Source: Streptococcus oralis subsp. tigurinus (lineage in GTDB: Bacteria; Bacillota; Bacilli; Lactobacillales; Streptococcaceae). From it: a DNA stretch of 64,000 bases. Shown here one piece after another: positions 13,029 through 47,905 of the stretch; positions within the stretch are counted from its first letter, which is position 1; each line of letters begins with the position of its first letter. The notes under the pieces are model-generated. The model was not told the DNA's origin, searched no databases, and was given only the letters and a program-made list of their open reading frames with translations. The position numbers and the translations under genes are program-made. The DNA is taken from assembly GCF_002356415.1 (NCBI RefSeq), contig NZ_AP018338.1, positions 1-64,000 of the forward strand, read 5' to 3'.

Positions 13029-13048
13029 GTTACCTCGTAGAATGGTAG

Positions 13049-13079
13049 AAAACTCAGTTGGTTAACCCAACTGAGTTTT
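13049..13079 (-). terminator. Terminator after the ABC-F gene
   Basis: A 13-bp stem AAAACTCAGTTGG / CCAACTGAGTTTT lies just beyond the ABC-F stop and before the yfhO-like start. The T tract is short on both strands. Confidence 0.7.
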
Positions 13080-13089
13080 GAAGTCTTAT

Positions 13090-14712: not shown

Positions 14713-14871
14713 TGTTTTTCTCCTACTAATATGTAATACATTTATTCTACTAGAAAAGAGAGAAATATTCAAATTTTTCTTTGTCAATTTTATGTCAACT
14801 AAGTTTACAGTTGTATTTACAGTGAATTGGCTCTTTGATTTAAATAATTTTCTGTTATTTTAACAAAAAAA

Positions 14872-14880
14872 TGCTATAAT
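14872..14880 (+). promoter_or_regulatory. Extended -10 promoter of trpS
   Basis: TGC-TATAAT forms an extended -10 element 28 bp before the trpS start. I see no T-box leader before this tRNA synthetase gene. Confidence 0.65.
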
Positions 14881-14908
14881 TGAAGAGACCATTTCGAAGG
14901 AGAAAAAA

Positions 14909-15934
14909 ATGACGAAACCCATTATTTTAACAGGAGACCGCCCAACAGGTAAACTGCATATTGGACATTATGTTGGGAGTCTTAAAAACAGAGTATTACT
15001 GCAGGAAGAAGACAAGTATGACATGTTTGTTTTTTTGGCGGACCAACAAGCATTGACAGATCACGCCAAAGACCCTCAAACGATTGTAGAATCGATTGGG
15101 AATGTTGCCTTAGATTACCTAGCAGTTGGATTAGATCCAAGTAAATCAACTATCTTTATTCAAAGCCAAATTCCAGAATTGGCTGAATTATCTATGTACT
15201 ATATGAATTTGGTGTCACTAGCTCGTTTGGAACGGAATCCGACAGTAAAAACAGAGATTGCTCAGAAAGGGTTTGGAGAAAGTATTCCGACAGGATTTTT
15301 GGTTTATCCGATTGCGCAAGCAGCAGATATTACTGCCTTCAAGGCTAATTATGTTCCTGTTGGGACAGATCAGAAACCAATGATTGAGCAAACTCGTGAG
15401 ATTGTTCGTTCCTTTAATCATGCTTATAATTGTGAGGTCTTGGTGGAGCCGGAAGGTATTTATCCAGGAAATGAGAGAGCAGGGCGTTTGCCAGGTTTAG
15501 ATGGAAATGCTAAAATGTCTAAATCCCTTAATAATGGTATTTATCTAGCAGATGATGCGGATACTTTGCGTAAAAAAGTCATGAGCATGTATACTGATCC
15601 GGATCATATTCGAGTGGAGGATCCAGGTAAGATTGAAGGAAATATGGTTTTCCATTATCTAGATGTGTTTGGTCGTCCAGAAGATGCTCAAGACATTGCA
15701 GAGATGAAAGAAAACTACCAACGTGGTGGTCTTGGTGATGTAAAGACGAAACGTTATCTACTTGAAATATTAGAACGGGAACTTGGCCCTATTCGTGAGC
15801 GCCGTATCGAATTTGCTAAGGATATGGGAGAAGTGTACAATATGCTTCAAAAAGGTAGTGAGAAAGCGCGTGAGGTTGCGGGGCAAACTCTATCTGAAGT
15901 TAAGGGAGCAATGGGAATAAATTATTTTAAATAA
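14909..15934 (+). CDS. trpS: Tryptophanyl-tRNA synthetase
   Basis: Class I aminoacyl-tRNA synthetase that charges tRNA-Trp, 341 residues. The HIGH motif appears as TGKLHIGH near residue 15 and the KMSKS motif as KMSKSLNNG in the second half. GAAGGAG precedes the ATG. Transcribed alone, with its own promoter and terminator. Confidence 0.97.
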
Positions 15935-15953
15935 TAGATAAAATATGAATCGT

Positions 15954-15993
15954 AAAACTATCTCTTCCATAGGATCACAGGGATAGTTTTTTT
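15954..15993 (+). terminator. Terminator of trpS
   Basis: A 9-bp stem AAAACTATC / GATAGTTTT (19-base loop) is followed by more T residues. Confidence 0.75.
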
Positions 15994-16015
15994 ATGATTT
16001 CTACCATAAATATAA

Positions 16016-16043
16016 TTGACAAATTTTCATAGAATGGTATGAT
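16016..16043 (+). promoter_or_regulatory. Promoter of guaB
   Basis: TTGACA at 16016-16021 and TATGAT at 16038-16043, with 16-bp spacing, lie about 54 bp before the guaB start. Confidence 0.75.
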
Positions 16044-16045
16044 AG

Positions 16046-17575
<1,530 letters not shown>

Positions 17576-20505: not shown

Positions 20506-21785
20506 CGAGGGTTACTTTTGAAGAAAAATACTATCCTGCTGTAAAGGAAAGAGTGTACAAAACACAGTTGTCAAATGGGTTGACAGTTTCTTTACTTCCT
20601 AAACAAGATTTTAATGAGGTTTACGGGGTTGTAACGGTTCAATTTGGCTCTGTAGATGCAACTTATACCAGTTTGGAAAAAGGGTTATGTCATCATCCAG
20701 CAGGAATTGCCCATTTTCTTGAACATAAATTGTTTGAACGAGAAAACTCTAAGGATATAATGGCTACTTTTACTCGATTAGGTGCGGACAGTAATGCCTT
20801 TACAAGCTTTACTAAGACTAGTTATCTTTTTTCAACAATTGACCATTTATTAGATAATTTAGATTTGCTTGATGAGTTAGTTGGAGATGCTCATTTTACA
20901 GAAGAGTCTGTTTTGAGGGAACAAGATATTATCCAGCAAGAACGAGAAATGTACCAAGATGATCCAGATTCGCGTTTGTTTTTTGCAACATTAGCCAATC
21001 TTTATCCTGCTACTCCTTTAGCAACAGATATTGTTGGGAGTGAGAAATCAATTTCTGAGATTCAAGTTTCAAATTTAAAAGAGAATTTTACAGACTTTTA
21101 CAAACCTGTCAACATGTCACTGTTTTTGGTTGGAAATATTGATGTAAAAGTTGTTGAGGAATACTTTTCGAAAAAGGAAAAGAAGACTTTAGAACAGTTT
21201 ACAGTTACAAAAGAGAAACTACCCTTGCAGCCTGTGAAGCAAACCGATAGCCTTCGGATGGAAGTTTCTTCACCCAAACTTGCTGTTGCGATTAGAGGTA
21301 ATGGGCAAATAACAGAAGTGGAGTCTTATCGTTACAATATTTTATTGAAATTGCTATTTACGATGATGTTTGGTTGGACCTCGGATCGTTTTCAAAAGTT
21401 ATACGAGACAGGGAAGTTAGATGCGTCATTGTCACTAGAGGTTGAGGTAAATAGTCGCTTTCATTTTGTGATATTGACGATGGATACCAAGGAACCTGTT
21501 TCTTTGTCGCACCAGTTTCGGAAAGCGATTCGTCAGTTTAGTAGTGATGCAGATATTACTGAGGAGCATCTCGATCTTGTTAAGAGTGAGATGTTTGGAG
21601 AATTTTTCAGTAGTATGAACTCTTTGGAATTTATTGCAACTCAATACGAGCCGATGGATCGCGGAGAAACAATTTTTGATTATCCGAAAATTTTACAGGA
21701 AATTACTTTGGAAGATGTTCTTGAAGCTGGGCATCGTTTGATTGATAATGGTGATCTAGTTGATTTTACAATTTTTCCAGCCTAA
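20502..21785 (+). CDS. M16 family zinc metallopeptidase (YfmH type)
   Basis: A 427-residue peptidase with the inverted zinc motif HFLEH (His71, Glu74, His75) and a downstream acidic cluster EREMYQDD (about 147) supplying the third ligand. Predicted cytoplasmic, with no signal peptide. Translationally coupled to the preceding inactive paralogue and followed by rodZ. Confidence 0.92.
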   Translation: MTRVTFEEKYYPAVKERVYKTQLSNGLTVSLLPKQDFNEVYGVVTVQFGSVDATYTSLEKGLCHHPAGIAHFLEHKLFERENSKDIMATFTRLGADSNAFTSFTKTSYLFSTIDHLLDNLDLLDELVGDAHFTEESVLREQDIIQQEREMYQDDPDSRLFFATLANLYPATPLATDIVGSEKSISEIQVSNLKENFTDFYKPVNMSLFLVGNIDVKVVEEYFSKKEKKTLEQFTVTKEKLPLQPVKQTDSLRMEVSSPKLAVAIRGNGQITEVESYRYNILLKLLFTMMFGWTSDRFQKLYETGKLDASLSLEVEVNSRFHFVILTMDTKEPVSLSHQFRKAIRQFSSDADITEEHLDLVKSEMFGEFFSSMNSLEFIATQYEPMDRGETIFDYPKILQEITLEDVLEAGHRLIDNGDLVDFTIFPA

Positions 21786-34934: not shown

Positions 34935-35483
34935 ATGATTAAATATAGTATCCGTGGTGAAAACCTAGAAGTAACAGAAGCGATTCGTGATTATGTAGTT
35001 TCTAAACTCGAAAAGATCGAAAAGTATTTTCAACCTGAGCAAGAGTTGGATGCACGTGTGAATTTGAAAGTTTACCGTGAAAAAACAGCAAAAGTTGAAG
35101 TAACGATTCCACTTGGATCTATTACTCTCCGTGCAGAAGATATTTCTCAAGATATGTATGGCTCTATCGATCTTGTAACTGATAAAATTGAACGTCAAAT
35201 TCGTAAAAATAAAACAAAAATCGAACGGAAGAATAAAAATAAAGTTGCGACAAGCCAACTCTTTACAGATGCCCTAATTGAAGATGAAAATGTTGTGCAA
35301 CCAAAAGTAGTTCGTTCAAAACAAATTGATTTAAAACCAATGGATTTAGAAGAAGCGCTTCTTCAAATGGATTTATTGGGACATGATTTCTTTATCTATG
35401 TAGATGTAGAAGATCAAACAACAAATGTTTTGTATCGTCGTGAAGATGGTGAGGTTGGTTTGCTCGAAGTAAAAGAATCATAA
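34935..35483 (+). CDS. hpf: Ribosome hibernation promoting factor, long form
   Basis: A 182-residue protein with the N-terminal S30AE domain (about 1-100) and C-terminal dimerisation domain (about 125-180, with MDLEEALLQMDLLGHDFF). The long form joins 70S ribosomes into inactive 100S dimers in starvation. A predicted cre site over its promoter fits that role. Downstream of comFC but with its own promoter and terminator. Confidence 0.95.
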   Translation: MIKYSIRGENLEVTEAIRDYVVSKLEKIEKYFQPEQELDARVNLKVYREKTAKVEVTIPLGSITLRAEDISQDMYGSIDLVTDKIERQIRKNKTKIERKNKNKVATSQLFTDALIEDENVVQPKVVRSKQIDLKPMDLEEALLQMDLLGHDFFIYVDVEDQTTNVLYRREDGEVGLLEVKES

Positions 35484-35502: not shown

Positions 35503-35533
35503 AGTGGTTTACTGATTTGTAAACCACTTTTTC
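35503..35533 (+). terminator. Terminator of hpf
   Basis: A 10-bp stem AGTGGTTTAC / GTAAACCACT, six-base loop, followed by TTTTTC. Confidence 0.85.
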
Positions 35534-35592
35534 TTGTGCCTATAAGTAAGTAGAAAAACGAGGAAATCCTTGATAAAACAGTCAGAATCGGA

Positions 35593-35638
35593 CCCTATAA
35601 TCTGAACTTATAGGGGTGTTTATATTTATTAAGTAGAC
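35593..35638. promoter_or_regulatory. Shared LysR-type operator block, copy A (before the acyl-CoA dehydrogenase operon)
   Basis: The inverted repeat CCCTATAA-N7-TTATAGGG (35593-35615) contains T-N11-A, the LysR-type recognition signature. Fourteen bases after TTATAG comes ATTAAGTAGAC (35628-35638). The same core (CTATAA-N7-TTATAG), the same 14-base spacing and the same ATTAAGTAGAC recur at 39234-39277 before the second operon. Its centre is about 65 bp before the predicted transcription start. Confidence 0.7.
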
Positions 35639-35707
35639 AAAATAATACCCTAAGGGATAGAATGGGGTTGTCAACAAATAGCGAATACAAAAATGTAAGC
35701 GCTCTTA
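35634..35707 (+). promoter_or_regulatory. Promoter and cre-like site of the acyl-CoA dehydrogenase operon
   Basis: TAGACA (35634-35639), 18 bp, TAGAAT (35658-35663). TGTAAGCGCTCTTA (35694-35707) matches the cre consensus at 13 of 14 positions and lies just downstream of the start, a roadblock position for CcpA. Confidence 0.6.
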
Positions 35708-35730
35708 TAACAATTAAAGGAGTCATGACT

Positions 35731-36939
35731 ATGGCAACAAAAGAAGAAATTTTACGCGAACTATATCCTGAAGACCTTTTTCACTATGCGGATGGTCTAA
35801 CTTTGGGAGAAGCAGAGGTTTTACAAGAAACTCGCCGTTTGATTGAGAAACATCTCCGTCCGGTTATTAATGAATACTGGGAAAAACCTGATTTTCCTTT
35901 TGAAGAATTCTATGCTGTAGCTAAGGGCGCTCAAATTATGAACAATCCAAAATTGTTTGAGGGACGTGAAGGTAGCTGGAAACCATCTGAACTTTATATT
36001 GCCTTCTTGTATCTTGAACTTGCTCGCTTCGATGCTTCTATGGCAACATTCTACACTGTTCATGGCGGACTTTGCTACAACACAATTCTCTTGGGTGGTG
36101 ATGAGCGTCAACAAAAAGAATTTCTTCCAAAACTAGCTGCATTTGATTGGCAAGGTTGCTTCGCTTTAACTGAACCTCTTTCAGGTTCTGATATTGCTGG
36201 AGGACTTGCAACTACTGCAGAACGTGTTGGAGACAAGTGGATTCTAAATGGTGAAAAACGCTGGATTGGTGGTTCAGATACTGCGGATGTCGTTCCTGTA
36301 TTTGCTCGTGATGTTGCGGATGGCAAGGTGAAATGCTTTATCGTTCGTAAGGGAGCTCCTGGATATCATGCAGAACCAATCCCACATAAGATTGCTCTTC
36401 GTTGTGTCCGCAATGGCCATATTACTATGAAGAATGTAGAGGTTCCAGATTCAGACCGTTTGGTAAATATCAATGGTTTTGGTGATGTAGCCCGCATCTT
36501 GACCTTCACTCGTGCGGACGTTGCTCACATTGCTATGGGAGTGACTTGTGGATCTTATGTAGCAGCTCTTAAATATGCTAAAGATCGTGAACAGTTCAAA
36601 CGTCCAATTGCCAAATTCCAAATTGTTCAAGAAAAATTGGCTCGTATGCAGGCAAATGCTGTAGCAGTTATTGCTTATTCAACTCGTATTGCTGAGATGC
36701 AAGAGAAAGGGAATGAATTGATGCTTAACTCGGCTCTTGCTAAGATGCACAATTCCTTGGTGATGCGCGAAACAGTTGCCCTTGCTCGTGAAACTTGCGG
36801 AGGTAATGGTATTACGCTTGAGACAGACGTTGCTCGTTTCTTTGCAGATGCTGAATCAATCTATACCTATGAAGGTTCACACGAAGTGAATGCCTTAATT
36901 GTTGGTCGTGAGATTACTGGACTAGGTGCCTTTGTTTAA
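35731..36939 (+). CDS. Acyl-CoA dehydrogenase, glutaryl-CoA dehydrogenase / ACX4-like
   Basis: FAD enzyme that removes two hydrogens from an acyl-CoA, 402 residues. The FAD-binding stretch FALTEPLSGSD and the C-terminal TYEGSHEVNALIVGRE are present. Glu381 in that last motif is the predicted catalytic base, in the arrangement of glutaryl-CoA dehydrogenase and plant ACX4. The start at 35731 has AAGGAG eight bases upstream; ATGs at 35725 and 35662 are less likely. First gene of acd-hbd-thl. No ETF genes are seen, so the electron acceptor is open: a distant ETF, or oxygen as in ACX4. Substrate inferred only as short-chain. Confidence 0.88.
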   Translation: MATKEEILRELYPEDLFHYADGLTLGEAEVLQETRRLIEKHLRPVINEYWEKPDFPFEEFYAVAKGAQIMNNPKLFEGREGSWKPSELYIAFLYLELARFDASMATFYTVHGGLCYNTILLGGDERQQKEFLPKLAAFDWQGCFALTEPLSGSDIAGGLATTAERVGDKWILNGEKRWIGGSDTADVVPVFARDVADGKVKCFIVRKGAPGYHAEPIPHKIALRCVRNGHITMKNVEVPDSDRLVNINGFGDVARILTFTRADVAHIAMGVTCGSYVAALKYAKDREQFKRPIAKFQIVQEKLARMQANAVAVIAYSTRIAEMQEKGNELMLNSALAKMHNSLVMRETVALARETCGGNGITLETDVARFFADAESIYTYEGSHEVNALIVGREITGLGAFV

Positions 36940-36945
36940 TGTCAG

Positions 36946-36980
36946 AAGGGCGATTGAAGGATTTTTGTTCAATCGTCCTT
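36946..36980 (+). other. Intercistronic hairpin between acd and hbd
   Basis: A 13-bp stem AAGGGCGATTGAA / TTCAATCGTCCTT (one G-U pair) with a nine-base loop and no T run after it. More likely an mRNA processing or stability element than a terminator. Confidence 0.6.
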
Positions 36981-37022
36981 GCTTCATGCACTGGATTTTT
37001 GTAGAATAAGAAGGAGAAAATA

Positions 37023-37868
37023 ATGATATCTAAGGTGATGATTATTGGTTCTGGTCAAATGGGAAGCGGAATTGCTCAAGTATTTGCTCAGGCTGGTTTT
37101 ACAGTTTACTTAAACGATATTAAAGAAGAATTTGTTCAAAGAGGTTTGAACAATATCACAAAACAATTGGAACGTTCAGTTGAAAAAGGACGGATGTCTG
37201 CGGATGAGAAGAATCAGGTATTGGCCAATTTGCTTCCATCTGTTTCATATGAAGATGCGAAACAAGTCCAATTGGTGATTGAAGCTGCAACTGAGAATCG
37301 TGAGATTAAGTTGAATATTTTCAAACAATTGGATGAATTGACTGATCCTAAAACTATCTTAGCATCAAACACATCCTCTTTGTCAATCACGGATATAGCT
37401 GCTGCTACTAAACATCAGGAGCGCGTGATTGGAATGCACTTCTTTAATCCTGCCCCAATCATGAAACTTGTAGAGGTTATTAAGGCCTTGCAGACTTCAG
37501 AAGAAGTGGTTCAGGCGGTTCGTGAACTGACAGTGAAAATTGGTAAAACACCAGTTGATGTTAAAGATTCTTATGGTTTTGTTGTGAACAGAATTTTGAT
37601 TCCTATGATCAATGAAGCCATTTACATTCTAGGTGAAGGAGTGGCTAGTGCCGAGGAAATCGATGAAGCGATGAAACTTGGTGCAAATCATCCTATTGGA
37701 CCTTTGGCTCTTGCTGACTTGATTGGATTGGATGTTTGTTTGGCTATTATGGGCGTCCTAAACCAAGGGTTTGGCGATCAAAAATACCGTCCTGCCCCTC
37801 TTCTTAAGAAAATGGTCGAAGCAGGAAAATTGGGACGGAAGACAAAAGAAGGCTTCTTTACTTACTAG
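37023..37868 (+). CDS. hbd: 3-hydroxyacyl-CoA (3-hydroxybutyryl-CoA) dehydrogenase
   Basis: NAD(P)-dependent interconversion of 3-hydroxyacyl-CoA and 3-oxoacyl-CoA. The 281-residue protein has an N-terminal Rossmann fold (GSGQMGSGIA), active-site His139 (GMHFFNPAP) and Glu151, and a helical dimerisation domain. Length fits the clostridial Hbd/PaaH type. AAGGAG precedes the ATG. Between acd and thl in the first operon. Confidence 0.93.
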   Translation: MISKVMIIGSGQMGSGIAQVFAQAGFTVYLNDIKEEFVQRGLNNITKQLERSVEKGRMSADEKNQVLANLLPSVSYEDAKQVQLVIEAATENREIKLNIFKQLDELTDPKTILASNTSSLSITDIAAATKHQERVIGMHFFNPAPIMKLVEVIKALQTSEEVVQAVRELTVKIGKTPVDVKDSYGFVVNRILIPMINEAIYILGEGVASAEEIDEAMKLGANHPIGPLALADLIGLDVCLAIMGVLNQGFGDQKYRPAPLLKKMVEAGKLGRKTKEGFFTY

Positions 37869-37886
37869 ACACTGATGGAGGTAGTC

Positions 37887-39065
37887 ATGAAAGACGTAGT
37901 TATTGTTTCGGCAGTGCGAACACCTTTAGGTTCCTTTGGCGGGAGCTTGAAGAATGTTTCTGCTGTTGATTTGGGATCTTTGGTAATTAAGAGTGCTTTG
38001 GAAAAAGCGAATATTAAACCAGAACAGGTAGATGAAGTGATTATGGGGAATGTCCTAGGCGCAGGTTTAGGCCAAAACGTGGCTCGCCAAATGAGTATTC
38101 ATGCTGGGCTTCCTGAATATATACCAGCCTTTACCATTAATAAGGTTTGTGGTTCCGGTTTGAAGGCAGTGCAGTTAGCTGCTCAAGCGATTAAGTGTGG
38201 AGATGCAGATATTGTCGTGGCTGGTGGTGCAGAAAACATGAGCCAGGCTCCATATGTTTTGCCAAGCTTCCGTTGGGGTGGCCGTATGGGAGATTCGAAA
38301 GTGGTAGATACCATGATTAAGGATGGTTTGTCTGATGCCTTTAATGACTACCATATGGGGATTACAGCTGAGAATGTGGCAGAAGAATATGGTATTAGCC
38401 GGGATGATCAAGATGCGCTTGCTTTGGAATCACAGAAACGAGCAGTGGCGGCTATAGAATCTGGACGCTTTAAGGAAGAGATTGTTCCAGTGGTTATTCC
38501 TCAACGTAAAGGCGATCCTATCGTCTTTGATACAGATGAATTTCCTAGAAAAGATGCTAGCTTGGAGAGTCTGTCTAAGCTACGTCCTGTTTTCAAAAAA
38601 GACGGTTCTGTTACAGCGGGGAATGCCTCAGGTATCAATGACGGAGCTGCAGCTGTCTTGGTCATGAGTGCTGAAAAAGCTGAAGAATTGGGACTTCCAG
38701 TCATTGCTCGCATTCGTTCGTATGCAAGTGCAGGTTTGGATCCTAAGATTATGGGATGTGGACCGATTTATGCGACTCGCAAAGCTCTTGAAAAAGGTAA
38801 TTTGACAGTTGATGATCTCGACTTGATCGAGTCAAATGAAGCCTTTGCTGCTCAGGCTTGTGCGGTTGGGAAAACACTTGGCTTTAACACAGATATTGTC
38901 AATGTCAATGGTGGCGCGATTGCTCTTGGTCACCCAATTGGGGCTTCAGGTTGCCGTATCCTAGTGACTCTGGTACATGAGATGATGAAACGTGATGCTA
39001 AAACTGGTTTAGCTACTCTCTGTATCGGAGGAGGGATGGGAACAGCCCTCATCGTTGAACGTTAG
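37887..39065 (+). CDS. thlA: Acetyl-CoA acetyltransferase (thiolase)
   Basis: Condenses two acetyl-CoA to acetoacetyl-CoA or runs the reverse thiolysis. The 392-residue protein has nucleophile Cys88 (KVCGSGLKA), the NEAFAAQ motif, His349 (LGHPIGASG) and Cys379 (CIGGGMG). The start at 37887 follows GGAGG at five bases; an upstream in-frame GTG/ATG region is less suitable. Last gene of operon 1, before a strong terminator. Confidence 0.95.
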
Positions 39066-39145
39066 TTATTAGAAAACTGAACGTCATTTCCTCTTTTTCA
39101 ATATTACGATTACAAAATGAGATATTGATCCGATCTCATAGTTAC

Positions 39146-39200
39146 ATACCTTATCAAGTGTCTTTCTCTAAAAGGGCTTGATAAGGTATTTTTATTTTTC
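39146..39200 (+). terminator. Terminator of acd-hbd-thl
   Basis: A 13-bp stem ATACCTTATCAAG / CTTGATAAGGTAT (18-base loop) followed by TTTTTATTTTT. The 318-bp gap between thl and ech holds this terminator and the ech promoter/operator. Confidence 0.9.
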
Positions 39201-39233
39201 TAAAACTTTAAGGTTGGATTGGATGACCATATA

Positions 39234-39277
39234 CTATAAGCTGGACTTATAGGTATATAAATAAAGATTAAGTAGAC
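39234..39277. promoter_or_regulatory. Shared LysR-type operator block, copy B (before ech-ctfAB)
   Basis: CTATAA-GCTGGAC-TTATAG (39234-39252), 14 bases, ATTAAGTAGAC (39267-39277). Core, spacing and second block match copy A at 35593. The centre is about 65 bp upstream of the predicted transcription start. Confidence 0.7.
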
Positions 39278-39324
39278 GGATGGGGAAAAAAGGGATATGA
39301 TGAAAATGTAAGCTCTTACATTTT
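39273..39324 (+). promoter_or_regulatory. ech promoter and cre-like palindrome
   Basis: TAGACG (39273-39278), 17 bp, TATGAT (39296-39301). The long palindrome AAAATGTAAG-CT-CTTACATTTT (39303-39324) contains TGTAAGCTCTTACA, one base from the ideal cre TGTAAGCGCTTACA, at the transcription start. Confidence 0.6.
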
Positions 39325-39384
39325 GTGTTGGTATTTGTTGACGCTGTACTCTGTACTCAAAATAAATCAAGTAGGAGCAGAACA

Positions 39385-40164
39385 ATGAGTAAAACTGTTT
39401 TATTAGAGGTTAAGAATGGTCTTGGCTATCTAACAATTAACCGTCCATCAGCTTTGAACGCCTTAAGTTCAGAAGTCTTAAAGGATTTGAATCTCGTTTT
39501 AGACCAAATTGAAGCAAGCGAGGACATTCGTGTTGTCATTGTGACTGGTCAAGGGGAGAAAGCATTTGTCGCGGGAGCAGACATTAAAGAGATGGACCAA
39601 ATGTCTCCAATTCAGGCTCATGAATACATGACCTATGCGAACGACACCTTTACCCGCTTATCTGAATTGACCCAGCCAACTATTTCAGTATTGAATGGTT
39701 ATGCTTTGGGAGGCGGCTTGGAATTAGCTCTTTCAACTGATATCCGAATCGGCTATGACAAGACAATGGTTGGTTTCCCTGAAGTTGGCTTGGGAATCAT
39801 TCCTGGTTTTGCAGGTACCCAAAGAATGTCTCGTTTGATTGGTACTAGTAAAACAAAGGAATTAATCTTTACTGCTAGAATGGTTAAAGGACAAGAAGCA
39901 TATGATCTTGGAATTCTTAATAAGTTGGTAGAAGCAGAAGAACTATTGCCTGCAGCAGAAGAGCTGGCGGCAGCGATTATGAAAAATGCCCCGCTAGCAG
40001 TTGAAAAAGCTAAACATATTATCCAAGTTGGCTCAGAACTCCCTCTGAAAAATGCTATTCGTTTGGAAACAGAAGCGGAAGCTCTTCTCTTCTCTACAGA
40101 AGATAAAGTTGAAGGAATGCGCGCATTTGTTGAAAAACGTAAAGCCGTATTCAATCGTAAATAA
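39385..40164 (+). CDS. Enoyl-CoA hydratase (crotonase family)
   Basis: Reversible hydration of enoyl-CoA such as crotonyl-CoA to 3-hydroxyacyl-CoA. The 259-residue protein has the oxyanion-hole motif AFVAGADIKEM, Glu113 (GGGLELAL) and Glu133 (FPEVGLG), the two catalytic glutamates of true hydratases. The start at 39385 follows TAGGAG. First gene of ech-ctfA-ctfB. Together with hbd and thl it completes the four-carbon section of the pathway. Confidence 0.93.
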   Translation: MSKTVLLEVKNGLGYLTINRPSALNALSSEVLKDLNLVLDQIEASEDIRVVIVTGQGEKAFVAGADIKEMDQMSPIQAHEYMTYANDTFTRLSELTQPTISVLNGYALGGGLELALSTDIRIGYDKTMVGFPEVGLGIIPGFAGTQRMSRLIGTSKTKELIFTARMVKGQEAYDLGILNKLVEAEELLPAAEELAAAIMKNAPLAVEKAKHIIQVGSELPLKNAIRLETEAEALLFSTEDKVEGMRAFVEKRKAVFNRK

Positions 40165-40180
40165 AAGTTGAGGTGTTAGT

Positions 40181-40906
40181 ATGAAAGCTGTTTTATCATT
40201 ACAAGAAGCTATTTCTAAAGTTAAATCAGGTGATGTCGTTGGGATTTCAGGGTTCCTTGCCGTTGGTGAACCATTGGAATTGATCGAAGAATTGGTTAGA
40301 CAAAATCAACAAGATTTGACTTTGGTTTCAGTTGTTACTTCACATCCAGGTAAAGAAGTGGGTGTTGGACGTCTCTGTGAAAACCACCAAGTTAAGAAAT
40401 ATGTTGCTGCTCACATCGGAACATCTCCTGCTGCTCAAAAAGCATACTTTAGTGGAGAAATGGAAGTAGAATTTACTCCAATGGGTACCGTTGTTGAACG
40501 TCTTCACGCTGCTGGAGCAGGTCTTGGAGGAGTTTTGACACCGACTGGAGTTGGTACAATTCTAGAAAACGAACATGAAAAAGTAGTTCGTAATGGTCGC
40601 GAGTACCTTATTTATGACCCTCTAAAACTTGACGTAGCATTGATTAAAGCTACAAAAGCTGACAAGTATGGAAACTTGTACATTGATGGTACAACTAAGA
40701 ACATTTCATTGCAACTTGCTCTTGCGGCAGATACAGTTATCGTTGAAACAAATGAAATTGTTGAAGTTGGTGAAATTAAACCGGATGATATTTACATCCC
40801 TGGTATCCTTGTTGACTATGTAGTCCAAGGCTTAACTCCAGAAGAACACCATAAGATGATGGGCGACCTCTGGACAGAGACTAACAAATTAGCGGGGGTA
40901 AAATAA
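40181..40906 (+). CDS. ctfA: CoA-transferase subunit A (AtoD/CtfA-like)
   Basis: Alpha subunit of a 3-oxoacid / acetate CoA-transferase, 241 residues, with the family-1 N-terminal GDVVGISGFL motif and the central GVGTILENEHEK region. It moves CoA between an acyl-CoA and a free acid. One base upstream of the beta subunit gene. Specificity for acetoacetate, butyrate or acetate cannot be read from sequence. Confidence 0.92.
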   Translation: MKAVLSLQEAISKVKSGDVVGISGFLAVGEPLELIEELVRQNQQDLTLVSVVTSHPGKEVGVGRLCENHQVKKYVAAHIGTSPAAQKAYFSGEMEVEFTPMGTVVERLHAAGAGLGGVLTPTGVGTILENEHEKVVRNGREYLIYDPLKLDVALIKATKADKYGNLYIDGTTKNISLQLALAADTVIVETNEIVEVGEIKPDDIYIPGILVDYVVQGLTPEEHHKMMGDLWTETNKLAGVK

Positions 40907-40907
40907 T

Positions 40908-41558
40908 ATGAAACCAAAAGAAATTATTGCAAGACGTGTTGCTCTTGAATTTAAAGATGGTGATGTTGTAAACCTTGGATTTGGTATTCCAAATGCTTCT
41001 GCAGACTTCATCCCAGAAGGTGTTAACGTAATTCTTCAAGCTGAAAACGGTGCCCTTCGATTTGGGGAAACACCGACTAAAGATAACTACAATCCAAACC
41101 TAGCAAACTCAGGTGGTGCGCCAATCACTCTTCTTCCAGGAGCTGCTTTGTTTGATTTGCAAACATCATTTGCAATTATTCGTGGTGGTCACGTTGATGC
41201 GACTGTTCTTGGAGCTCTTGAAGTAAGCCAAGATGGAAGCATTGCTAACTGGATTATCCCAGGAAAATTTGCACCTGGTATGGGTGGAGCGATGGACCTT
41301 TTGGTAGGTGCTAAGCGCGTAATCGGAGCAATCCAACATACTACAGGTGGTGAATCTAAACTCTTGAAAGAGTGCACATTGCCTCTATCAGCTAAAGGAG
41401 TATTGGATCTTGTCATAACAGAACTAGCTGTTTTTGGATTCCAAGATGGTAAATTCTTATTGAAAGAGTTGGCTCCTGGTGTGACATTAGAAGAAGTTCT
41501 TGAAAAAACAGCTGGGGAAGTCATTGTCTCAGAAGACTTAAAGACGATGCCGATTTAA
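40908..41558 (+). CDS. ctfB: CoA-transferase subunit B (AtoA/CtfB-like)
   Basis: Beta subunit, 216 residues, with the glutamate that forms the CoA-thioester intermediate, Glu46 in QAENGALRFG. The GGHVDATVLGALEV and PGKFAPGMGGAMDLL regions are typical. Last gene of operon 2. I see no terminator after it, so some read-through to lysR is possible. Confidence 0.93.
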   Translation: MKPKEIIARRVALEFKDGDVVNLGFGIPNASADFIPEGVNVILQAENGALRFGETPTKDNYNPNLANSGGAPITLLPGAALFDLQTSFAIIRGGHVDATVLGALEVSQDGSIANWIIPGKFAPGMGGAMDLLVGAKRVIGAIQHTTGGESKLLKECTLPLSAKGVLDLVITELAVFGFQDGKFLLKELAPGVTLEEVLEKTAGEVIVSEDLKTMPI

Positions 41559-41587
41559 GCAAAAAAAGAACTATTTTCTACTCAGTG

Positions 41588-41626
41588 TGTTATAATATAA
41601 ACTAGATAGTATTGTAAGCGCTTTAT
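41588..41626 (+). promoter_or_regulatory. lysR promoter with cre-like sequence
   Basis: Extended -10 TGT-TATAAT (41588-41596). TGTAAGCGCTTTAT (41613-41626) has the intact cre core with two mismatches at the 3' end. Confidence 0.45.
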
Positions 41627-41670
41627 ATATAACGTTAAAATGAAGTATTCAAAATGTTATTTCGATAAGA

Positions 41671-41718
41671 AAGTCAGTAGACAACTATTAAACACTAGAA
41701 TAGTTGTCTAATTGACTT
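41671..41718. repeat. Long inverted repeat upstream of lysR
   Basis: AAGTCA-gt-AGACAACTATT, nine bases, AATAGTTGTCT-aat-TGACTT: 11-bp perfect inner arms and 6-bp outer arms. It ends 35 bp before the GTG start. No T run follows. It may be an operator, possibly for autoregulation, or an RNA hairpin in the leader. Confidence 0.65.
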
Positions 41719-41753
41719 GCTAAAATAGTGAAGGAAAGCTAGGTGATGGGTAA

Positions 41754-42662
41754 GTGGATATTATCCAAATGAACTATTTCATCAATATCATAGAATGCGG
41801 ATGCAACCTTTCCATTGCTGCAAAGAAGATTCACATTAGTCAATCAGCCTTGAGTCAATTCGTGACAAATTTTGAAGCAGCTGAAGGGGTTCAATTATTC
41901 AATCGCAAGAATGGAAGATTAGAAAGTTTAACAGAGGCGGGACGCAAGATTTATCGTTATGCGACCGAGATTGTTAATCGACATGAAGAAATGCTTTCCA
42001 TGATCCATATAGAAGCTCAAAAGCAAAAAGGCACCATTAATCTTGGTATTCCATCCTTGATTTTACGAGTTTATTTTGCTAGTGCCTTGCCGCATTTTCT
42101 GAAAAATAATCCTCATATCCATATCCAGGTTACGGAAGGTGGAGGGAAGGAAATTCGTCAAAAAATGGTTGATGGAGATTTGAATTTCTCTATTCTGATA
42201 GAGCCTACGAGCTTGGATGCTAAAAAATATGAACAACATATCATTCAATTGGATGAATACGTTGCTTATATGGATAAGGATCATCCGCTGGCTCAGAAAA
42301 GCTTGTTGGAATGGTCTGATATTGCTAGTTATGAATTGGCAACCTTCAACAAAACATTTACGACTTATGATTTAGTGACAGAAAAACTTCGTTCGCAACG
42401 AATTGAGGCTAAATTTGCTTATCTTTCCTCTACTTGGGACTTCTTAGTTGAATCAACTCATCAGACAGATTTGATTGCCCTTTTGCCAAGGCCGGTTGAA
42501 TTTTTTGTGGACAAGAGTCGTTTTAAGGCGGTTAGATTCAAGGATCCGATTCCATTTAATATTTGGTTTTGTAGACCCTATAAAAACTCCTACAATGAAG
42601 TAGAGTCTTATGTGTATGAAGAATTGTTGAAAGATTATTACCAACCGTTTTCTGACAACTAA
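41754..42662 (+). CDS. LysR-family transcriptional regulator of the acyl-CoA cluster
   Basis: A 302-residue LysR-type regulator with an N-terminal winged helix (about 1-60, AAKKIHISQSALSQFVTNFE) and a periplasmic-binding-like effector domain (about 90-295). The start is GTG at 41754 (AGGTGA upstream); the N-terminus MDIIQMNYF fits the family. It is the prime candidate to bind the two identical T-N11-A operators before acd and ech. The inducer is unknown, probably a pathway acyl-CoA or acid. Confidence 0.9.
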   Translation: MDIIQMNYFINIIECGCNLSIAAKKIHISQSALSQFVTNFEAAEGVQLFNRKNGRLESLTEAGRKIYRYATEIVNRHEEMLSMIHIEAQKQKGTINLGIPSLILRVYFASALPHFLKNNPHIHIQVTEGGGKEIRQKMVDGDLNFSILIEPTSLDAKKYEQHIIQLDEYVAYMDKDHPLAQKSLLEWSDIASYELATFNKTFTTYDLVTEKLRSQRIEAKFAYLSSTWDFLVESTHQTDLIALLPRPVEFFVDKSRFKAVRFKDPIPFNIWFCRPYKNSYNEVESYVYEELLKDYYQPFSDN

Positions 42663-42677
42663 GATGAGGTGAATGCG

Positions 42678-43790
42678 ATGACCTATAATGACGTGCTGGC
42701 GCGAGAATTGAAGGCAGACGTGAAAGTGTTGATTCGGGACTATTTCAAGTCTCGTGAGGATGAACAACAGTTCCCTAGAGAATTACTTTATCAGTTTATC
42801 GAGCAATTTGATATCTTTTCCTTGCTTTTAGATAGTCAAGATTCTGTTTTGAGAACTGAGTTTTTGACCTTTATTCGCTTGATTTCAAAAGATTTCCCTG
42901 CTTTTTCTGCTGTTCTACTAACTCAGGCATGTTATGGTATCTATCCTATTTTACGATATGGGAGTCAGGAACAACAATCGCGTTATGTAGAACCCTTAGT
43001 AAGGGGAGAAATCTTAGCTGGCTTGGGATTTTCTGAAGGAAAATTGATGGACAGCTTGGAGGTTATTGAAACAACTGCAAGGAAAACAGAAACAGGTTGG
43101 TCTTTAACTGGGAAGAAGTCAATTGTATCAAATTGTCGCTATACAGATATTTTGTTAATCTTAGCCAAGGTTCAGGAAGCTAACGGACAAGATGGATACG
43201 GATTTTTCATTGTTGATACGACTCGACCGGGAGTTGCTTTTGGAGATGATATTACAAAACCTGGTTTACAGGGCTTACCTGTGAATTCGGTAACTTTTGA
43301 TCAGGTCAAATTGCCAGAAGATAGTTTGCTAGGATTGACCTTAAATGGGGAAAGTCAGTTAAATGATATTATCAAAAAATTACAGCTTGGATTAAGCGCA
43401 ATCTCTATCGGTATCTCTGAGGGAGCTTTTGAAAAAGGTCTGGCTTTTGTAAAGGTCAAAAGAGGATTTGGGAAACGATTAATCGATGCGACAGTCTATC
43501 AACATCAATTTGCAGAATTGTATACTAAGCTGTGTGCGGCTGAATCTTACTTTGCCTCCTACAAGGATAGGATGAAGGAGGATTCACTCTTTATATCTCA
43601 AATAAAACTTTATACGACAAAAGTAGCAATTGAGATTTCTGAGGAAATTATTAGATTAATTGGACCTTTTCAAACCTTGGATGACATCCCCATAGACCGT
43701 TATCTAAAGGATGCCAAAACGATTGAAATCTATGGAAAATCTGGGGATTCGATTCGCAAAAGAATAGCAGCCCAATGGATAAAGGAGTAA
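42678..43790 (+). CDS. Acyl-CoA dehydrogenase-like protein lacking the usual catalytic Glu
   Basis: A 370-residue protein with the acyl-CoA dehydrogenase fold: helical N-domain, middle beta domain (GLGFSEGKLMDS...WSLTGKKSIVSN) and C-terminal helical domain. In the C-terminal motif IYEGTxxIQR the sequence is IYGKSGDSIR, so the base Glu of short/medium-chain enzymes is Gly353. It may be inactive, use another base, or act on a different substrate. The start at 42678 follows GATGAGG; a GTG at 42669 overlaps that site. Between lysR and a lactonase gene, probably cotranscribed. Confidence 0.82.
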   Translation: MTYNDVLARELKADVKVLIRDYFKSREDEQQFPRELLYQFIEQFDIFSLLLDSQDSVLRTEFLTFIRLISKDFPAFSAVLLTQACYGIYPILRYGSQEQQSRYVEPLVRGEILAGLGFSEGKLMDSLEVIETTARKTETGWSLTGKKSIVSNCRYTDILLILAKVQEANGQDGYGFFIVDTTRPGVAFGDDITKPGLQGLPVNSVTFDQVKLPEDSLLGLTLNGESQLNDIIKKLQLGLSAISIGISEGAFEKGLAFVKVKRGFGKRLIDATVYQHQFAELYTKLCAAESYFASYKDRMKEDSLFISQIKLYTTKVAIEISEEIIRLIGPFQTLDDIPIDRYLKDAKTIEIYGKSGDSIRKRIAAQWIKE

Positions 43791-43793
43791 AGC

Positions 43794-44711
43794 ATGGCAG
43801 AACTCACCTTACAGGAATATCAATTTCATGATATGAAACTGATATGGCTACGTGGAGCCGATAAATTGACGGATGCAGGGACTCTTTTTGGTCCGGTTCC
43901 GAAAGTTGTGTGGTCTCGTTACTACCCAACAAATGATGCTAATATGATGGCGGAATTGACGGATCCTATTTTGATCCAGTACAAGGGTAAAAATTACTTG
44001 ATAGATGCAAGTTTTGATACGGCAAAATTATCCGATAAACAAAGGCGCAATTTAGGAATCTTGTCTGAAAGTCGTGTAGAAGAAAGTTTAGCTCTTTTAG
44101 GGCTCTCGCCTGAAGATATTGACATCGTGCTGATGACACATATGCATCACGATCATTCTGGTGGCTTGACGCATGTGAATGATCAAGGGAAGCTGGTTTC
44201 CAAGTATTCAAACGCCAAGATTATTGTGAATGATGTCGAATGGTATGAGATGAGAAACCCTAATAATCGAACGCGGGGAACTTATCTGAGAGAAAATTGG
44301 GAACCGATTCAAGATCAGGTGACGACTTTCTCGGAGTATATCAATGTCATTCCAGAAATCCAAATGATTCACACAAGTGGTCACAGCAATGGCCACAGTA
44401 TTATCTTGCTCAAACAGGGGAAAGATACGATGATCCATATGGGGGACTTGATGTTATCACATGTTCATCGAAATCCTCTCTGGGTTCCAGCAGTTGATGA
44501 TTATCCTATGAAGTCAATTTTAGCCAAAGAGAAGTGGTTGCGTCAGGCTTTTGAGAATCATTACAAGTTTTTCTTTTACCATGATCAATTTTTCGCGGTA
44601 GTAGAGTTTGACAAGGAAGGGAAGGAATTTGTAGATTATGTTCTACGTTCTCGCCCCCCACTGATTCCTTTTACAGATCAGCAGGATCGTAAGCCAGACT
44701 TCTTAGGATAG
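43794..44711 (+). CDS. ytnP: Metallo-beta-lactamase fold lactonase, YtnP-like
   Basis: A 305-residue dinuclear zinc hydrolase with the HMHHDHSGG motif (His116, His118, Asp120, His121), a later His in TSGHSNGHS, and YHDQF. It closely resembles Bacillus YtnP, a quorum-quenching lactonase active on acyl-homoserine lactones and interfering with streptomycete signalling. AAAGGAG six bases before the ATG. Its place in an acyl-CoA cluster suggests a lactone or hydroxyacid substrate; that is inference. Confidence 0.85.
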   Translation: MAELTLQEYQFHDMKLIWLRGADKLTDAGTLFGPVPKVVWSRYYPTNDANMMAELTDPILIQYKGKNYLIDASFDTAKLSDKQRRNLGILSESRVEESLALLGLSPEDIDIVLMTHMHHDHSGGLTHVNDQGKLVSKYSNAKIIVNDVEWYEMRNPNNRTRGTYLRENWEPIQDQVTTFSEYINVIPEIQMIHTSGHSNGHSIILLKQGKDTMIHMGDLMLSHVHRNPLWVPAVDDYPMKSILAKEKWLRQAFENHYKFFFYHDQFFAVVEFDKEGKEFVDYVLRSRPPLIPFTDQQDRKPDFLG

Positions 44712-44740
44712 CAGAATATGAGGAGACAAATGTAACATTT

Positions 44741-44789
44741 TCTTGTTGACGGGGATAATGGTGCATCATGCATCCATTTGCCAACAAGA
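44741..44789 (+). other. Structured leader before the FabK paralogue
   Basis: TCTTGTTG (44741-44748) pairs with CAACAAGA (44782-44789) and encloses a second imperfect hairpin ATGGTGCAT-C-ATGCATCCAT (TGCAT/ATGCA perfect). It ends about 13 bases before the AAAGGAGG ribosome-binding site. It may be a regulatory leader or processing site; no known riboswitch class was recognised. Confidence 0.4.
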
Positions 44790-44817
44790 ATCAACAGAAA
44801 ATAAAAGGAGGACTCAT

Positions 44818-45756
44818 ATGTCAATTACAAAACTTTTACAGATTCAATATCCAATTTTCCAAGGGGCTATGGCTCAAATCTCGCACTATCAACTAGCAGC
44901 AGCTGTTTCTGAGGCTGGAGGTCTGGGAATTATCGCTTCGGGTGGTATGACCGGAGAACAGTTGCGAGAAGAAATTCGTGAACTGAGAAAGTTGACAGAT
45001 AAGCCTTTTGGTGTCAACATCATGTTGATGATGAAAAATATCAAGGATATTGTGACCGTTATCATCGAAGAAAAGGTTCCAGTGGTAACTACAGGTGCAG
45101 GAACTCCTAAGCATATCATGCCTTACTTGAAAGAAGCAGGAATCAAGGTTATTCCAGTTATTGCCAGTGTCAAGCATGCTCAAAAAATGCAAGAATTGGG
45201 AGTTGATGCTGTAATCGCTGAGGGTTCAGAAGCTGGTGGCCATATTGGAGAGACCAATACAATGGCTCTTATCCCACAAATCGTTGATGCGGTAACAATT
45301 CCAGTCATTGCTGCAGGAGGTGTGGCAGATGGTCGTGGACTTGCTGCGGCGATTGCCCTAGGTGCACAAGGGGTTCAAATGGGAACAGTTTTTCTTGCTT
45401 CAGAAGAATGCCCAATTTCTCCAGCCTATAAAGAAGCTATTTTGGCGGCAAGTGATACAGCAACTGCGGTTACAGGCCGCATTGCGGGAGCGCCAGTTCG
45501 TTGTATTCGCAATGAGATGACGGATCACTACATTGAATTAGAGCAGAAAGGTACAAACCGAGAGGAACTGGAAGAAATTACGATCGGTTCTCTATCTAAG
45601 GCTGTCTATGAAGGTGATACAGTTCATGGTTCAATGATGAGCGGACAAATTGCGGGTTTGGTGAAAGACATCAAACCATGTAAGGCTATTTTAGAATCAA
45701 TTGTGAAACAGGCGCAAGAGTGCCTACAAGACATTCGACTAGAATTAGGTGAATAA
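44818..45756 (+). CDS. FabK-like flavin enoyl reductase / nitronate monooxygenase family (paralogue)
   Basis: A 312-residue FMN TIM-barrel protein closely resembling pneumococcal FabK (enoyl-ACP reductase II): IFQGAMAQISHYQLAAAVSE, KPFGVNIML, VVTTGAG, EAGGHIG with the catalytic-type His, and PVIAAGGVADG. The normal fabK sits in the fab operon, so this is probably a second copy at the end of the acyl-CoA cluster. It may reduce an enoyl-CoA, or act as a nitronate monooxygenase. The start at 44818 follows AAAGGAGG. Confidence 0.85.
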   Translation: MSITKLLQIQYPIFQGAMAQISHYQLAAAVSEAGGLGIIASGGMTGEQLREEIRELRKLTDKPFGVNIMLMMKNIKDIVTVIIEEKVPVVTTGAGTPKHIMPYLKEAGIKVIPVIASVKHAQKMQELGVDAVIAEGSEAGGHIGETNTMALIPQIVDAVTIPVIAAGGVADGRGLAAAIALGAQGVQMGTVFLASEECPISPAYKEAILAASDTATAVTGRIAGAPVRCIRNEMTDHYIELEQKGTNREELEEITIGSLSKAVYEGDTVHGSMMSGQIAGLVKDIKPCKAILESIVKQAQECLQDIRLELGE

Positions 45757-45792
45757 TTTAGTCTAGGTAGAAGATTCTGTAATACTGAGGAG

Positions 45793-45826
45793 AAAGGAGA
45801 GCGAGGTATTTGCTCTCCTTTTTTAT
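45793..45826 (+). terminator. Terminator at the end of the acyl-CoA cluster
   Basis: A 10-bp stem AAAGGAGAGC / GCTCTCCTTT with a nine-base loop, followed by T residues. Confidence 0.88.
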
Positions 45827-45903
45827 ATAGGGTTTCTTTAAGAGAATCTTGCTATAATAAAAGCAGTACTTTCTCTTTAAAGGTCGCTTTTTAAGGGCAT
45901 TTG

Positions 45904-45912: not shown

Positions 45913-45931
45913 AATGCGCAAGAGGTTTAGA

Positions 45932-47905
45932 ATGAAAAAAAATAATTTAACTCCGAATTCTGCGATTCTACTAGGGATTGCAACTTTCGGAACCTTAACA
46001 ATGCTGATTATTTTTTCACAAAATAATGTTGTAACAATCAGTGTCTTGTTTTTATTTGTACTTCTTTATCTGCTTTTATTTGTCTGGCAAAAAAAACAGT
46101 ATGAAAAGAGCGAAATTGAACAAATCCAATACGTAAATCATCAAGCTGAAAATAGCTTGAGTACTTTGCTTGATCAAATGCCGGTGGGAGTCCTGAAATT
46201 AGACTTATCTAGTGGCGAAGTGGAATGGTTTAATCCCTATGCTGAGCTGATTTTGACGAATGAAGAAGGGGAAATTGATGTTGAATTAATTCAAACCATC
46301 ATCAAGGCTTCTGTTGGGAATCCTGGTTCGTATGCTACCTTGGGCGAAACACGGTATGCTGTTCATATGGACAAGGCTTCGGGTGTTTTGTATTTCTTTG
46401 ACGTTTCAGGGGAATACGAAGCAACTGTTGAATTGGTAACGAGTCGACCAGTGATTGGGGTCATCTCGGTAGATAATTACGATGATTTGGAGGATGCGAC
46501 GTCTGACTCTGATATCAGCCATATCAATAGCTTTGTAGCTAATTTTGTTTCAGAATTTGCTAGTAAGTATGCTATGTTTTCTCGCCGTGTGGGGATGGAT
46601 CGTTTTTATTTATTCACAGATTACACAGTACTCGAGGAATTGATGAATGATAAATTCTCTGTTATTGATAGTTTCCGAGAAGAATCAAAACAGAGGCAAC
46701 TGGCCCTAACCTTAAGTATGGGATTTTCTTATGGTGATGGAAATCATGAAGAGATAGGGAAAATTGCCTTGCTCAACTTGAACTTAGCAGAAGTTCGCGG
46801 TGGTGACCAGGTGGTGGTCAAGGAAAATAACGAAACCAAGAATCCTGTCTACTTTGGTGGAGGAACTGCTGCATCTATCAAACGTACTCGTACACGTACC
46901 AGAGCCATGATGACAGCAATTTCTGATAAGATTCGAAGTGTTGACCAGGTTTTTGTAGTCGGTCATAAAAATCTAGATATGGATGCTTTGGGCTCTGCTG
47001 TTGGTATGCAGTTGTTTGCAAGTAATATTATTGAGAACAGTTATGCTGTCTACGATGCAGACCATATGCCAGCAGATATCGAGCGTGCTATTCAGTTCTT
47101 GAAGAAGGAAGATATCACGAAACTCTTATCTCTTACAGATGCGATGAAGCTAGTTACAAACCGTTCATTATTGATTCTGGTGGATCATTCCAAGACGGCT
47201 CTGACCTTGTCAAAAGATTTTTATGATTTGTTCACTCAAACTATTGTTATTGACCATCATAGACGTGATCAGGATTTCCCTGATAATGCAGTCATCACCT
47301 ATATTGAAAGTGGGGCAAGTAGTGCCAGTGAGCTGGTCACAGAATTGATTCAGTTCCAAAATTCTAAGAAGAATCGTTTGAGTCGTATGCAGGCCAGTGT
47401 TTTGATGGCTGGTATGATGCTGGATACCAAGAATTTCACATCTCGCGTGACGAGCCGAACCTTTGATGTGGCTAGCTATCTGAGAACACGGGGAAGTGAC
47501 AGTATTGCTATCCAGGAGATTGCTGCGACAGATTTTGAAGAATACCGCGAAGTGAATGAACTCATTTTACAAGGTCGTAAGTTGGGTTCAGATGTCTTAA
47601 TTGCCCAAGCTAAGGATTCGACCACTTATGACACAGTTGTCATCAGTAAGGCTGCCGATGCTATGTTGGCCATGTCCGGTATTGAAGCCAGCTTCGTTCT
47701 AGCGAAAAATACACAAGGATTTATCTCAATCTCAGCTCGAAGTCGCAGTAAAATCAATGTTCAACGCATTATGGAAGAGTTGGGCGGCGGTGGCCACTTT
47801 AATCTAGCTGCTGCGCAAATCGAGAATATGAGTCTGTCAGAAGCAGGAGAAAAATTGACTCAACTTGTCTTGGATGAACTAAAGGAAAAGGAGAAAGAAG
47901 AATGA
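45932..47905 (+). CDS. gdpP: Cyclic-di-AMP phosphodiesterase GdpP (Pde1)
   Basis: Degrades c-di-AMP to pApA and so sets turgor, potassium uptake and beta-lactam tolerance. The 657-residue protein has two N-terminal membrane helices (about 10-55), a PAS-like domain (about 85-150), a degenerate GGDEF domain (about 170-300), and DHH ([20 protein letters not shown]) and DHHA1 ([10 protein letters not shown]) domains. The start at 45932 follows AGAGG. Overlaps rplI by four bases. Confidence 0.96.

Follow-up and report, generated by a model that had tools for sequence, protein, structure and literature searches.

An accessory short-chain acyl-CoA gene block in Streptococcus oralis encodes a putative ACX4-type acyl-CoA oxidase in a genome lacking electron-transfer flavoprotein

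The current analysis concerns a ten-gene block of Streptococcus oralis subsp. tigurinus, located between hpf and gdpP within the first 64,000 nucleotides of contig NZ_AP018338.1 (RefSeq assembly GCF_002356415.1), a stretch referred to here in its entirety as the window. Judging from its genes, the block as a whole is likely to degrade short-chain acids. We also consider it probable, if slightly less so, that it does so by an O2-dependent oxidation to acetyl-CoA that is independent of electron-transfer flavoprotein (ETF), with butyrate, crotonate, and related C4 acids as the likely substrates. In the proposed pathway, the CoA-transferase would activate the acid with CoA taken from acetyl-CoA or acetoacetyl-CoA, after which FadE would convert butyryl-CoA to crotonyl-CoA, placing two electrons onto its FAD and passing them directly to O2 with the formation of H2O2. 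Crt would then hydrate the product, 3-hydroxybutyryl-CoA dehydrogenase (HBD) would oxidize it to yield NADH, and the thiolase would cleave acetoacetyl-CoA to two molecules of acetyl-CoA. Streptococci are usually regarded as fermenters of sugars that lack beta-oxidation. The original prediction, made from the DNA letters, had recognized an accessory C4 acyl-CoA block with its own regulator, and both the gene families and a LysR protein are indeed present at the site; between the two functions it offered, degradation of short-chain acids is now the better supported.

FadE and the missing electron-transfer flavoprotein

FadE passes the NCBIfam model Staph_DH_FadE (NF052270) over its full length with 664.9 bits against a cut-off of 600. 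In a phylogenetic tree it groups with ACX4, a short-chain acyl-CoA oxidase of plants (support 100/98), apart from glutaryl-CoA dehydrogenase (GCDH) and outside the clade of butyryl-CoA dehydrogenase (Bcd), and two alternative placements were rejected (p-AU 0.002 and 0.003). Its flavin motif reads K-R-W-I-G, ending in Gly181, as opposed to the K-x-W/F-I-T of ETF-dependent acyl-CoA dehydrogenases (ACADs), while Asn229 occupies the position of ACX4 Asn255 and the catalytic Glu is present; the mapping of both residues onto reference positions is our own, derived from chain numbering. With identical proteins counted once and rows shorter than 340 aa dropped, the Gly181 and Asn229 pattern is found in 53/53 distinct FadE sequences from the collected loci. 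It is equally present in all of the best 120 among 5141 database homologues, these being the candidates, out of 7999 scored, that passed an E-value of 1e-80. For comparison, 40 ACADs were taken from 40 ETF-positive Bacilli; these stood close to the top of the Bacilli FadE match list and thus rank with the most FadE-like. None of the 40 has the ACX4-type Gly and Asn pair; 38 have Thr and 2 have Ser as gatekeeper, and the second position is Thr throughout. Thr likewise occupies both positions in five further ACADs of ETF-positive Bacilli (L100-L102), three GCDH structures, 2dvl, and the Bcd of C. difficile.

Passages of Burgener et al. (PMC6017585) describe the conversion of an ACAD, Mcd, into an oxidase and name Thr317 of its K-x-W/F-I-T motif as the dioxygen gatekeeper. 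Changing Thr317 to Gly reduced ETF transfer and conferred oxidase activity, and the best variant combines three changes, including Glu377 to Asn in imitation of ACX4 Asn255. By clade and residues alike, FadE appears to be an ACX4-type acyl-CoA oxidase, and O2 is quite probably its electron acceptor. Precedents for such a route are contained in excerpts of two further reports: in one, an acyl-CoA oxidase replaced the ETF-linked ACADs of a bacterium with success on octanoic acid, late success on butyric acid, and none on oleic acid (PMC8593149), and in the other, ACX4 and catalase were induced on butyrate (PMC9637915).

FadE-type genes (at least 375 bits) are carried by 42/284 Streptococcus genomes, after removal of three distant FadE matches (G035, G110, and G176) from a raw tally of 45. 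ACADs normally require ETF. A PF01012 search returned no ETF match in the genome of the window (G000), and matches occurred in just 2/284 Streptococcus genomes, G035 and G110, neither of which has a FadE-type gene; all 42 carriers are without ETF. According to coordinates, the ETF genes of G035 and G110 adjoin a distant ACAD of their own. In an uncertain alignment, these two distant ACADs (L040 and L041) have Ser in one case and Cys in the other in place of the standard catalytic Glu. Among 358 Bacilli genomes, for which the FadE and ETF lists were matched by hand, ETF was found in 0/21 FadE carriers versus 256/337 of the others. The FadE-type scores in this set are bimodal: 21 genomes give 23 matches of at least 381 bits, and the next match follows at 170 bits. 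The 21 carriers span five family labels (f1, f2, f6, f14, and f45), which amount to few lineages and not to 21 independent events. FadE carriers from Atopostipes and Aerococcaceae (L019-L021) are also without ETF. Provided that FadE is functional at all in these genomes, it is nearly certain to work without ETF.

Organization, regulation, and history of the block

Ten uninterrupted ORFs on the same strand occupy the hpf-gdpP interval between 35.6 and 45.8 kb (Table 1). All ten ORFs of the original prediction were found intact, and its family assignments hold in NCBIfam and Pfam models; for the crotonase, the best NCBIfam model scores below its own cut-off. The starts listed for fadE, crt, lysR, and fabK2 are probable corrections of the ORF openings. 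By the standard motif definitions, catalytic motifs are intact in the thiolase, crotonase, HBD, CoA-transferase, lactonase, and FabK. The thl product is the only strong Thiolase_N match of the genome (377 bits), and two others at 36 and 26 bits are taken to be fatty-acid synthesis enzymes. With corrected starts, intergenic gaps of 1-16 bp separate the genes inside hbd-thl, crt-ctfA-ctfB, and lysR-acad2-ytnP, and longer gaps are found after fadE (83 bp) and before crt (319 bp), the lysR ORF (195 bp), and fabK2 (109 bp), which would be consistent with approximately three transcripts: fadE-hbd-thl, crt-ctfA-ctfB, and lysR-acad2-ytnP-(fabK2). In other loci an MFS transporter sits between thl and crt; no trace of a remnant was found in the thl-crt gap of the window.

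Table 1. Features of the hpf-gdpP interval, in window positions
Feature	Position	Strand	Basis or remark
hpf, left flank, outside block	34935..35483	+	adjacent to gdpP in empty-site relatives
accessory block, approximate edges	35536..45871	.	blastn homology with empty-site relatives
operator-like palindrome CTATAA-N7-TTATAG, 114 bp before fadE	35595..35613	.	one of two exact genome copies
fadE, putative ACX4-type acyl-CoA oxidase/dehydrogenase, 403 aa	35728..36939	+	NCBIfam, tree, residues; ORF opens 35662
hbd, 3-hydroxybutyryl-CoA dehydrogenase	37023..37868	+	PRK05808, 454 bits, cut-off 408
thl, acetyl-CoA acetyltransferase (thiolase)	37875..39065	+	TIGR01930, 515 bits, cut-off 241
second operator-like palindrome copy, 132 bp before crt	39234..39252	.	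exact genome copy
crt, enoyl-CoA hydratase	39385..40164	+	Pfam ECH_1, 204 bits, cut-off 27; ORF opens 39325
ctfA, 3-oxoacid/acetate CoA-transferase subunit A	40181..40906	+	TIGR02429, 179 bits, cut-off 128.5
ctfB, CoA-transferase subunit B	40908..41558	+	TIGR02428, 266 bits, cut-off 243.6
lysR, LysR-family regulator	41769..42662	+	nearest model CidR, below cut-off; ORF opens 41754
acad2, ACAD-fold protein without catalytic glutamate	42678..43790	+	possible GTG start 42669
ytnP-like metallo-beta-lactamase-fold lactonase	43794..44711	+	HxHxDH intact
fabK2, FabK-like FMN enoyl reductase paralogue	44821..45756	+	ORF opens 44743
gdpP, right flank, outside block	45914..47905	+	

The original prediction had counted two ACAD-like proteins. 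Both do have the ACAD fold; in the second, ACAD2, the catalytic Glu is replaced by Gly in 32/32 distinct orthologues, a count that leaves out sequences shorter than 330 aa (the broken L028 copy), L040, and L041, the last being a different protein. Nor is there a Glu at the second position, known from isovaleryl-CoA dehydrogenase (IVD); the catalytic Glu positions used here are those we assume for MCAD and IVD. By its active site, ACAD2 is not a working dehydrogenase. A role as nitroalkane oxidase or class-D monooxygenase was considered for it and seems less likely, neither being among the 50 fold matches listed, which are ACAD-family. The YtnP-like lactonase reaches 364.2 bits, below the NF047919 cut-off of 425, with its metal motif intact, and FabK2 reaches 428 bits, below its model cut-off of 453, with the EGxExGGHxG motif kept.

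Only two exact copies of the palindrome CTATAA-N7-TTATAG are found in the 1.89 Mb genome, one ahead of fadE and one ahead of crt, against a chance expectation of 0.56 given the base composition of the window; a reversed control pattern occurs once. The left edge of the block in the original prediction, 35593, falls at the first copy. In a survey of 38 hand-chosen genomes (26 carriers and 12 non-carriers, with sites counted by hand), 27/37 exact sites fall inside the block, in 17/26 carriers, and the remaining 10 are scattered genome-wide, 3 of them in the non-carriers. Related blocks share their sites by descent. Because the control pattern reaches 32 sites across these 38 genomes, it is the clustering within the block, not the total, that constitutes the signal. 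Matches to the palindrome with two mismatches are at chance level in the window (4 found, 4.4 expected). LysR-type boxes follow a T-N11-A rule, a geometry that the palindrome would fit, and the block LysR probably controls both fadE-hbd-thl and crt-ctfA-ctfB through the two copies. Cre-like sequences (TGTAAGCGCT) at 35694-35707 and 41613-41626, before fadE and lysR, resemble the CcpA site of staphylococcal fad; such matches are within chance, as at least three arise in 16/100 shuffles, and are only a lead.

When examining the insertion site, we compared 40 stretches upstream of gdpP, 34 from FadE-less genomes and 6 from carriers whose block lies at another site, using group labels of our own that are based upon gdpP identity. 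In keeping with the accessory insertion originally predicted, the site is empty or thiolase-only in the close relatives fetched: hpf and gdpP are adjacent in 12/12 mitis/infantis-like non-carriers, and a lone thiolase lies between them in 16/16 oralis-like non-carriers. Hpf was not found in 12/40 stretches, including all 6 from carriers. Conservation of the block at this position throughout the mitis group was not observed, and 242/284 Streptococcus genomes have no FadE-type gene. Flank comparisons by blastn to L044-L071 place the end of homology at 35531-35547 and its return at 45870-45876. Among 27 genomes whose FadE is at least 93% identical, coordinates place the gene beside gdpP in 14 and elsewhere in 13. 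Named carrier records include S. oralis, S. cristatus, S. infantis, S. timonensis, S. thalassemiae, S. pseudopneumoniae, and S. anginosus, and the one record labelled S. pneumoniae, strain SMRU824 (L005), has the block at the hpf-gdpP site with a FadE whose identity falls beside that of S. thalassemiae.

Two loci hint at how the block is gained or lost. S. oralis subsp. tigurinus AZ_3a (L002) has fadE, hbd in two pieces, and thl, followed directly by gdpP, with a right-hand junction (39082 to 45872) identical to that of most lone-thiolase strains, and S. pseudopneumoniae 75_SPSE (L016) has a decayed second thiolase (20790-21209) to the right of a complete block. Thiolase copies may thus have served as recombination points for block gain or loss, in either direction. 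The split hbd of the shortened AZ_3a block (11296-12164) is itself a footprint of block change. The thiolase has had a different history from fadE, as judged from sequence identities to the window, which in infantis-, cristatus-, and anginosus-like blocks reach 93-98% for fadE and 81-85% for thl. A need for isoprenoids could explain the persistence of a lone thiolase in oralis-like strains, an idea that is weakened by the 12/12 mitis/infantis-like non-carriers, in which no thiolase match was found beyond one at 22 bits.

Related systems and alternative explanations

Among the closest known systems, Arabidopsis ACX4 (PDB 2ix5 and 2ix6) is a peroxisomal short-chain acyl-CoA oxidase, whereas the putative oxidase FadE of the window is bacterial, has no organelle, and sits in a block with other C4 enzymes. 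Excerpts of work on the staphylococcal fadXDEBA system (PMC12369327 and PMC13170264) describe a FadE that belongs to the same family, given that the FadE of the window passes NF052270. FadE of staphylococcal type, our own label for the f14 and f45 loci, has the same oxidase residues in 12 loci, and the 14 sampled genomes of this type are without ETF. All 12 loci share an arrangement of CoA-transferase, a gap of ~1.6 kb, FadE, FadB-like, and thiolase genes, the gap having room for what may be fadD; scans of four of the FadE proteins and of one CoA-transferase gave scores above the cut-offs of the staphylococcal FadE and FadX models, respectively. In contrast to fadXDEBA, the ten ORFs of the window include no fadD, no fused FadB, and no FadX, and instead provide separate HBD, Crt, and CtfAB proteins together with LysR, ACAD2, YtnP, and FabK2, which suggests short-chain as opposed to long-chain acids as substrates. 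A separate streptococcal lineage (L036-L039; G274, G152, G010, and G151) has a fadXDEBA-like set; in L036, FadD exceeds the cut-off of its staphylococcal model (790.6 bits against 650), whereas FadX (491) and FadE (495) fall short of theirs.

With the clostridial butyrate pathway, thl-hbd-crt-bcd-etfBA, the block has thiolase, HBD, crotonase, and CoA-transferase in common, but it has neither Etf nor a Bcd-type dehydrogenase, and electrons would go to oxygen and not come from NADH. An AtoDA-like CoA-transferase and a thiolase are shared with the atoDAEB system for the catabolism of short-chain acids, to which the block adds a full beta-oxidation spiral for saturated acids, with no AtoE-type transporter in its ten ORFs.

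The absence of ETF is by itself compatible with a FadE that is a true dehydrogenase passing electrons to another acceptor, such as a flavoprotein or a quinone- or NAD-linked partner, in a block that still degrades acids, and fermentative carriers may often live at little oxygen. We nevertheless regard this as unlikely, since no partner recurs (among the block genes scanned, the staphylococcal-type loci share just CoA-transferase, HBD/FadB-like, and thiolase), the Gly/Asn pattern is invariant in the homologues seen, and FadE falls in the ACX4 clade. A little less likely again is that the block degrades lactones or substituted acids, with YtnP opening a lactone ring, ACAD2 performing some unusual chemistry, and the C4 enzymes finishing the breakdown. 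The genes lysR, acad2, and ytnP do accompany fadE, thl, hbd, and crt, both in streptococci and in three genomes from another family of the same taxonomic order (L089-L091), and the Gly of ACAD2 is invariant in its orthologues; however, ACAD2 could just as well be degenerate or have a regulatory role, and YtnP does not reach the cut-off of its model.

The second function in the original prediction, the making of butyrate to dispose of reducing power, is not supported for a route through FadE, in view of the placement of FadE in the ACX4 clade and the absence of ETF; such a step depends on ETF or on an equivalent carrier, and without one FadE would be incapable of it, so production by this route was rejected as unlikely. 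Butyrate could otherwise be made from acetyl-CoA to dispose of NADH if FabK2 acted as a crotonyl-CoA reductase and the CoA-transferase released the product. FabK2 retains the FabK motif and is again a neighbor of FadE in S. suis-like loci (L027, L028, and L030-L032), L088 has next to a FadE a FabK-like gene of 39% identity that may not be orthologous, and thiolase, HBD, Crt, and CoA-transferase are all reversible. This scenario is improbable, as FabK2 was not seen in the FadE-bearing cristatus-, anginosus-, and S. entericus-like stretches fetched or in L029 (the L024 and L025 stretches end inside or near ytnP), and an oxidase in the same block would reverse the reduction. Least probable of all is a role in 3-hydroxybutyrate or polyhydroxybutyrate metabolism instead of acid oxidation for energy. 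A class III polyhydroxyalkanoate (PHA) synthase gene does lie near FadE in six S. suis-like genomes (within ~4 kb in five and at ~17 kb in G084), these being the only ones over the cut-off among 284 Streptococcus genomes and all FadE carriers, and the examined locus L027 also has PhaE-like and hydratase-like genes. Yet 36/42 FadE carriers have no PHA synthase above the cut-off (TIGR01836), and none was found in G000, so a polyhydroxybutyrate role was rejected for the genome of the window. The L027 region (G261, 12908-16835), with PhaC, PhaE-like, and MaoC-type hydratase-like genes, is a possible polyhydroxybutyrate locus in its own right; PhaC is also found in G260, G264, G265, G084, and G133. 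A second FadE-type cluster of G261 (L035; G261:C1:158000-177999) includes two transporter-like ORFs, one of which was scanned with no NCBIfam match at 1e-10, and, by eye, a CaiB-like CoA-transferase.

Several observations nonetheless weigh against an ETF-independent oxidase pathway in the window. In the work on Mcd cited above (PMC6017585), the Thr317-to-Gly change alone gave oxidase activity that was low relative to the native dehydrogenase. The Trp changed in the best variant (Trp315 to Phe) is retained by FadE and ACX4, and the comparison at the second position is inexact, with Thr in ordinary ACADs and Glu in Mcd. The genome counts of FadE and ETF are not independent, given the five family labels of the carriers. 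A distant FadE relative from Microbacteriaceae (L023) has the oxidase residue pattern in an ETF-positive genome, and because of it the oxidase signature alone does not track ETF absence. Lastly, no acid transporter is found among the ten ORFs, and the exact palindrome is absent from the block in 9/26 carriers (all six cristatus-like and three S. suis-like).

Implications for oral streptococci and related bacteria

The kind of pathway and the enzyme family are already known, and some bacterial acyl-CoA oxidases are known from actinobacteria. Within the literature searched, what appears new is an oxidase-type FadE in ETF-less low-GC bacteria, as well as an accessory, separately regulated block of this kind in oral streptococci; no title or abstract in the open-licence literature was found to read staphylococcal or streptococcal FadE as an acyl-CoA oxidase. 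According to abstracts of the staphylococcal literature, S. aureus was long believed to have no working fatty-acid degradation pathway. The main text of PMC12369327 terms FadE an acyl-CoA dehydrogenase and contains none of the words oxygen, electron, oxidase, hydrogen peroxide, or H2O2, and the main text of PMC13170264 contains none of oxidase, electron, or hydrogen peroxide. On balance, we favor the view that FadE of streptococci, of staphylococcal-type genomes, and of related ETF-less lineages has been misnamed and is an ACX4-type oxidase, such that beta-oxidation in these bacteria would be run by O2, with H2O2 released at each turn, in replacement of the ETF/quinone branch. If so, it would be clear where the electrons of FadE go and how the pathway can proceed in bacteria without ETF, and an O2-using FadE would link the use of fatty acids with oxygen and peroxide stress. 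For oral streptococci, butyrate from neighboring anaerobes would then serve as food and, in addition, provide a second source of H2O2, and a FabK2 acting as crotonyl-CoA reductase could even create an NADH-to-O2 cycle.

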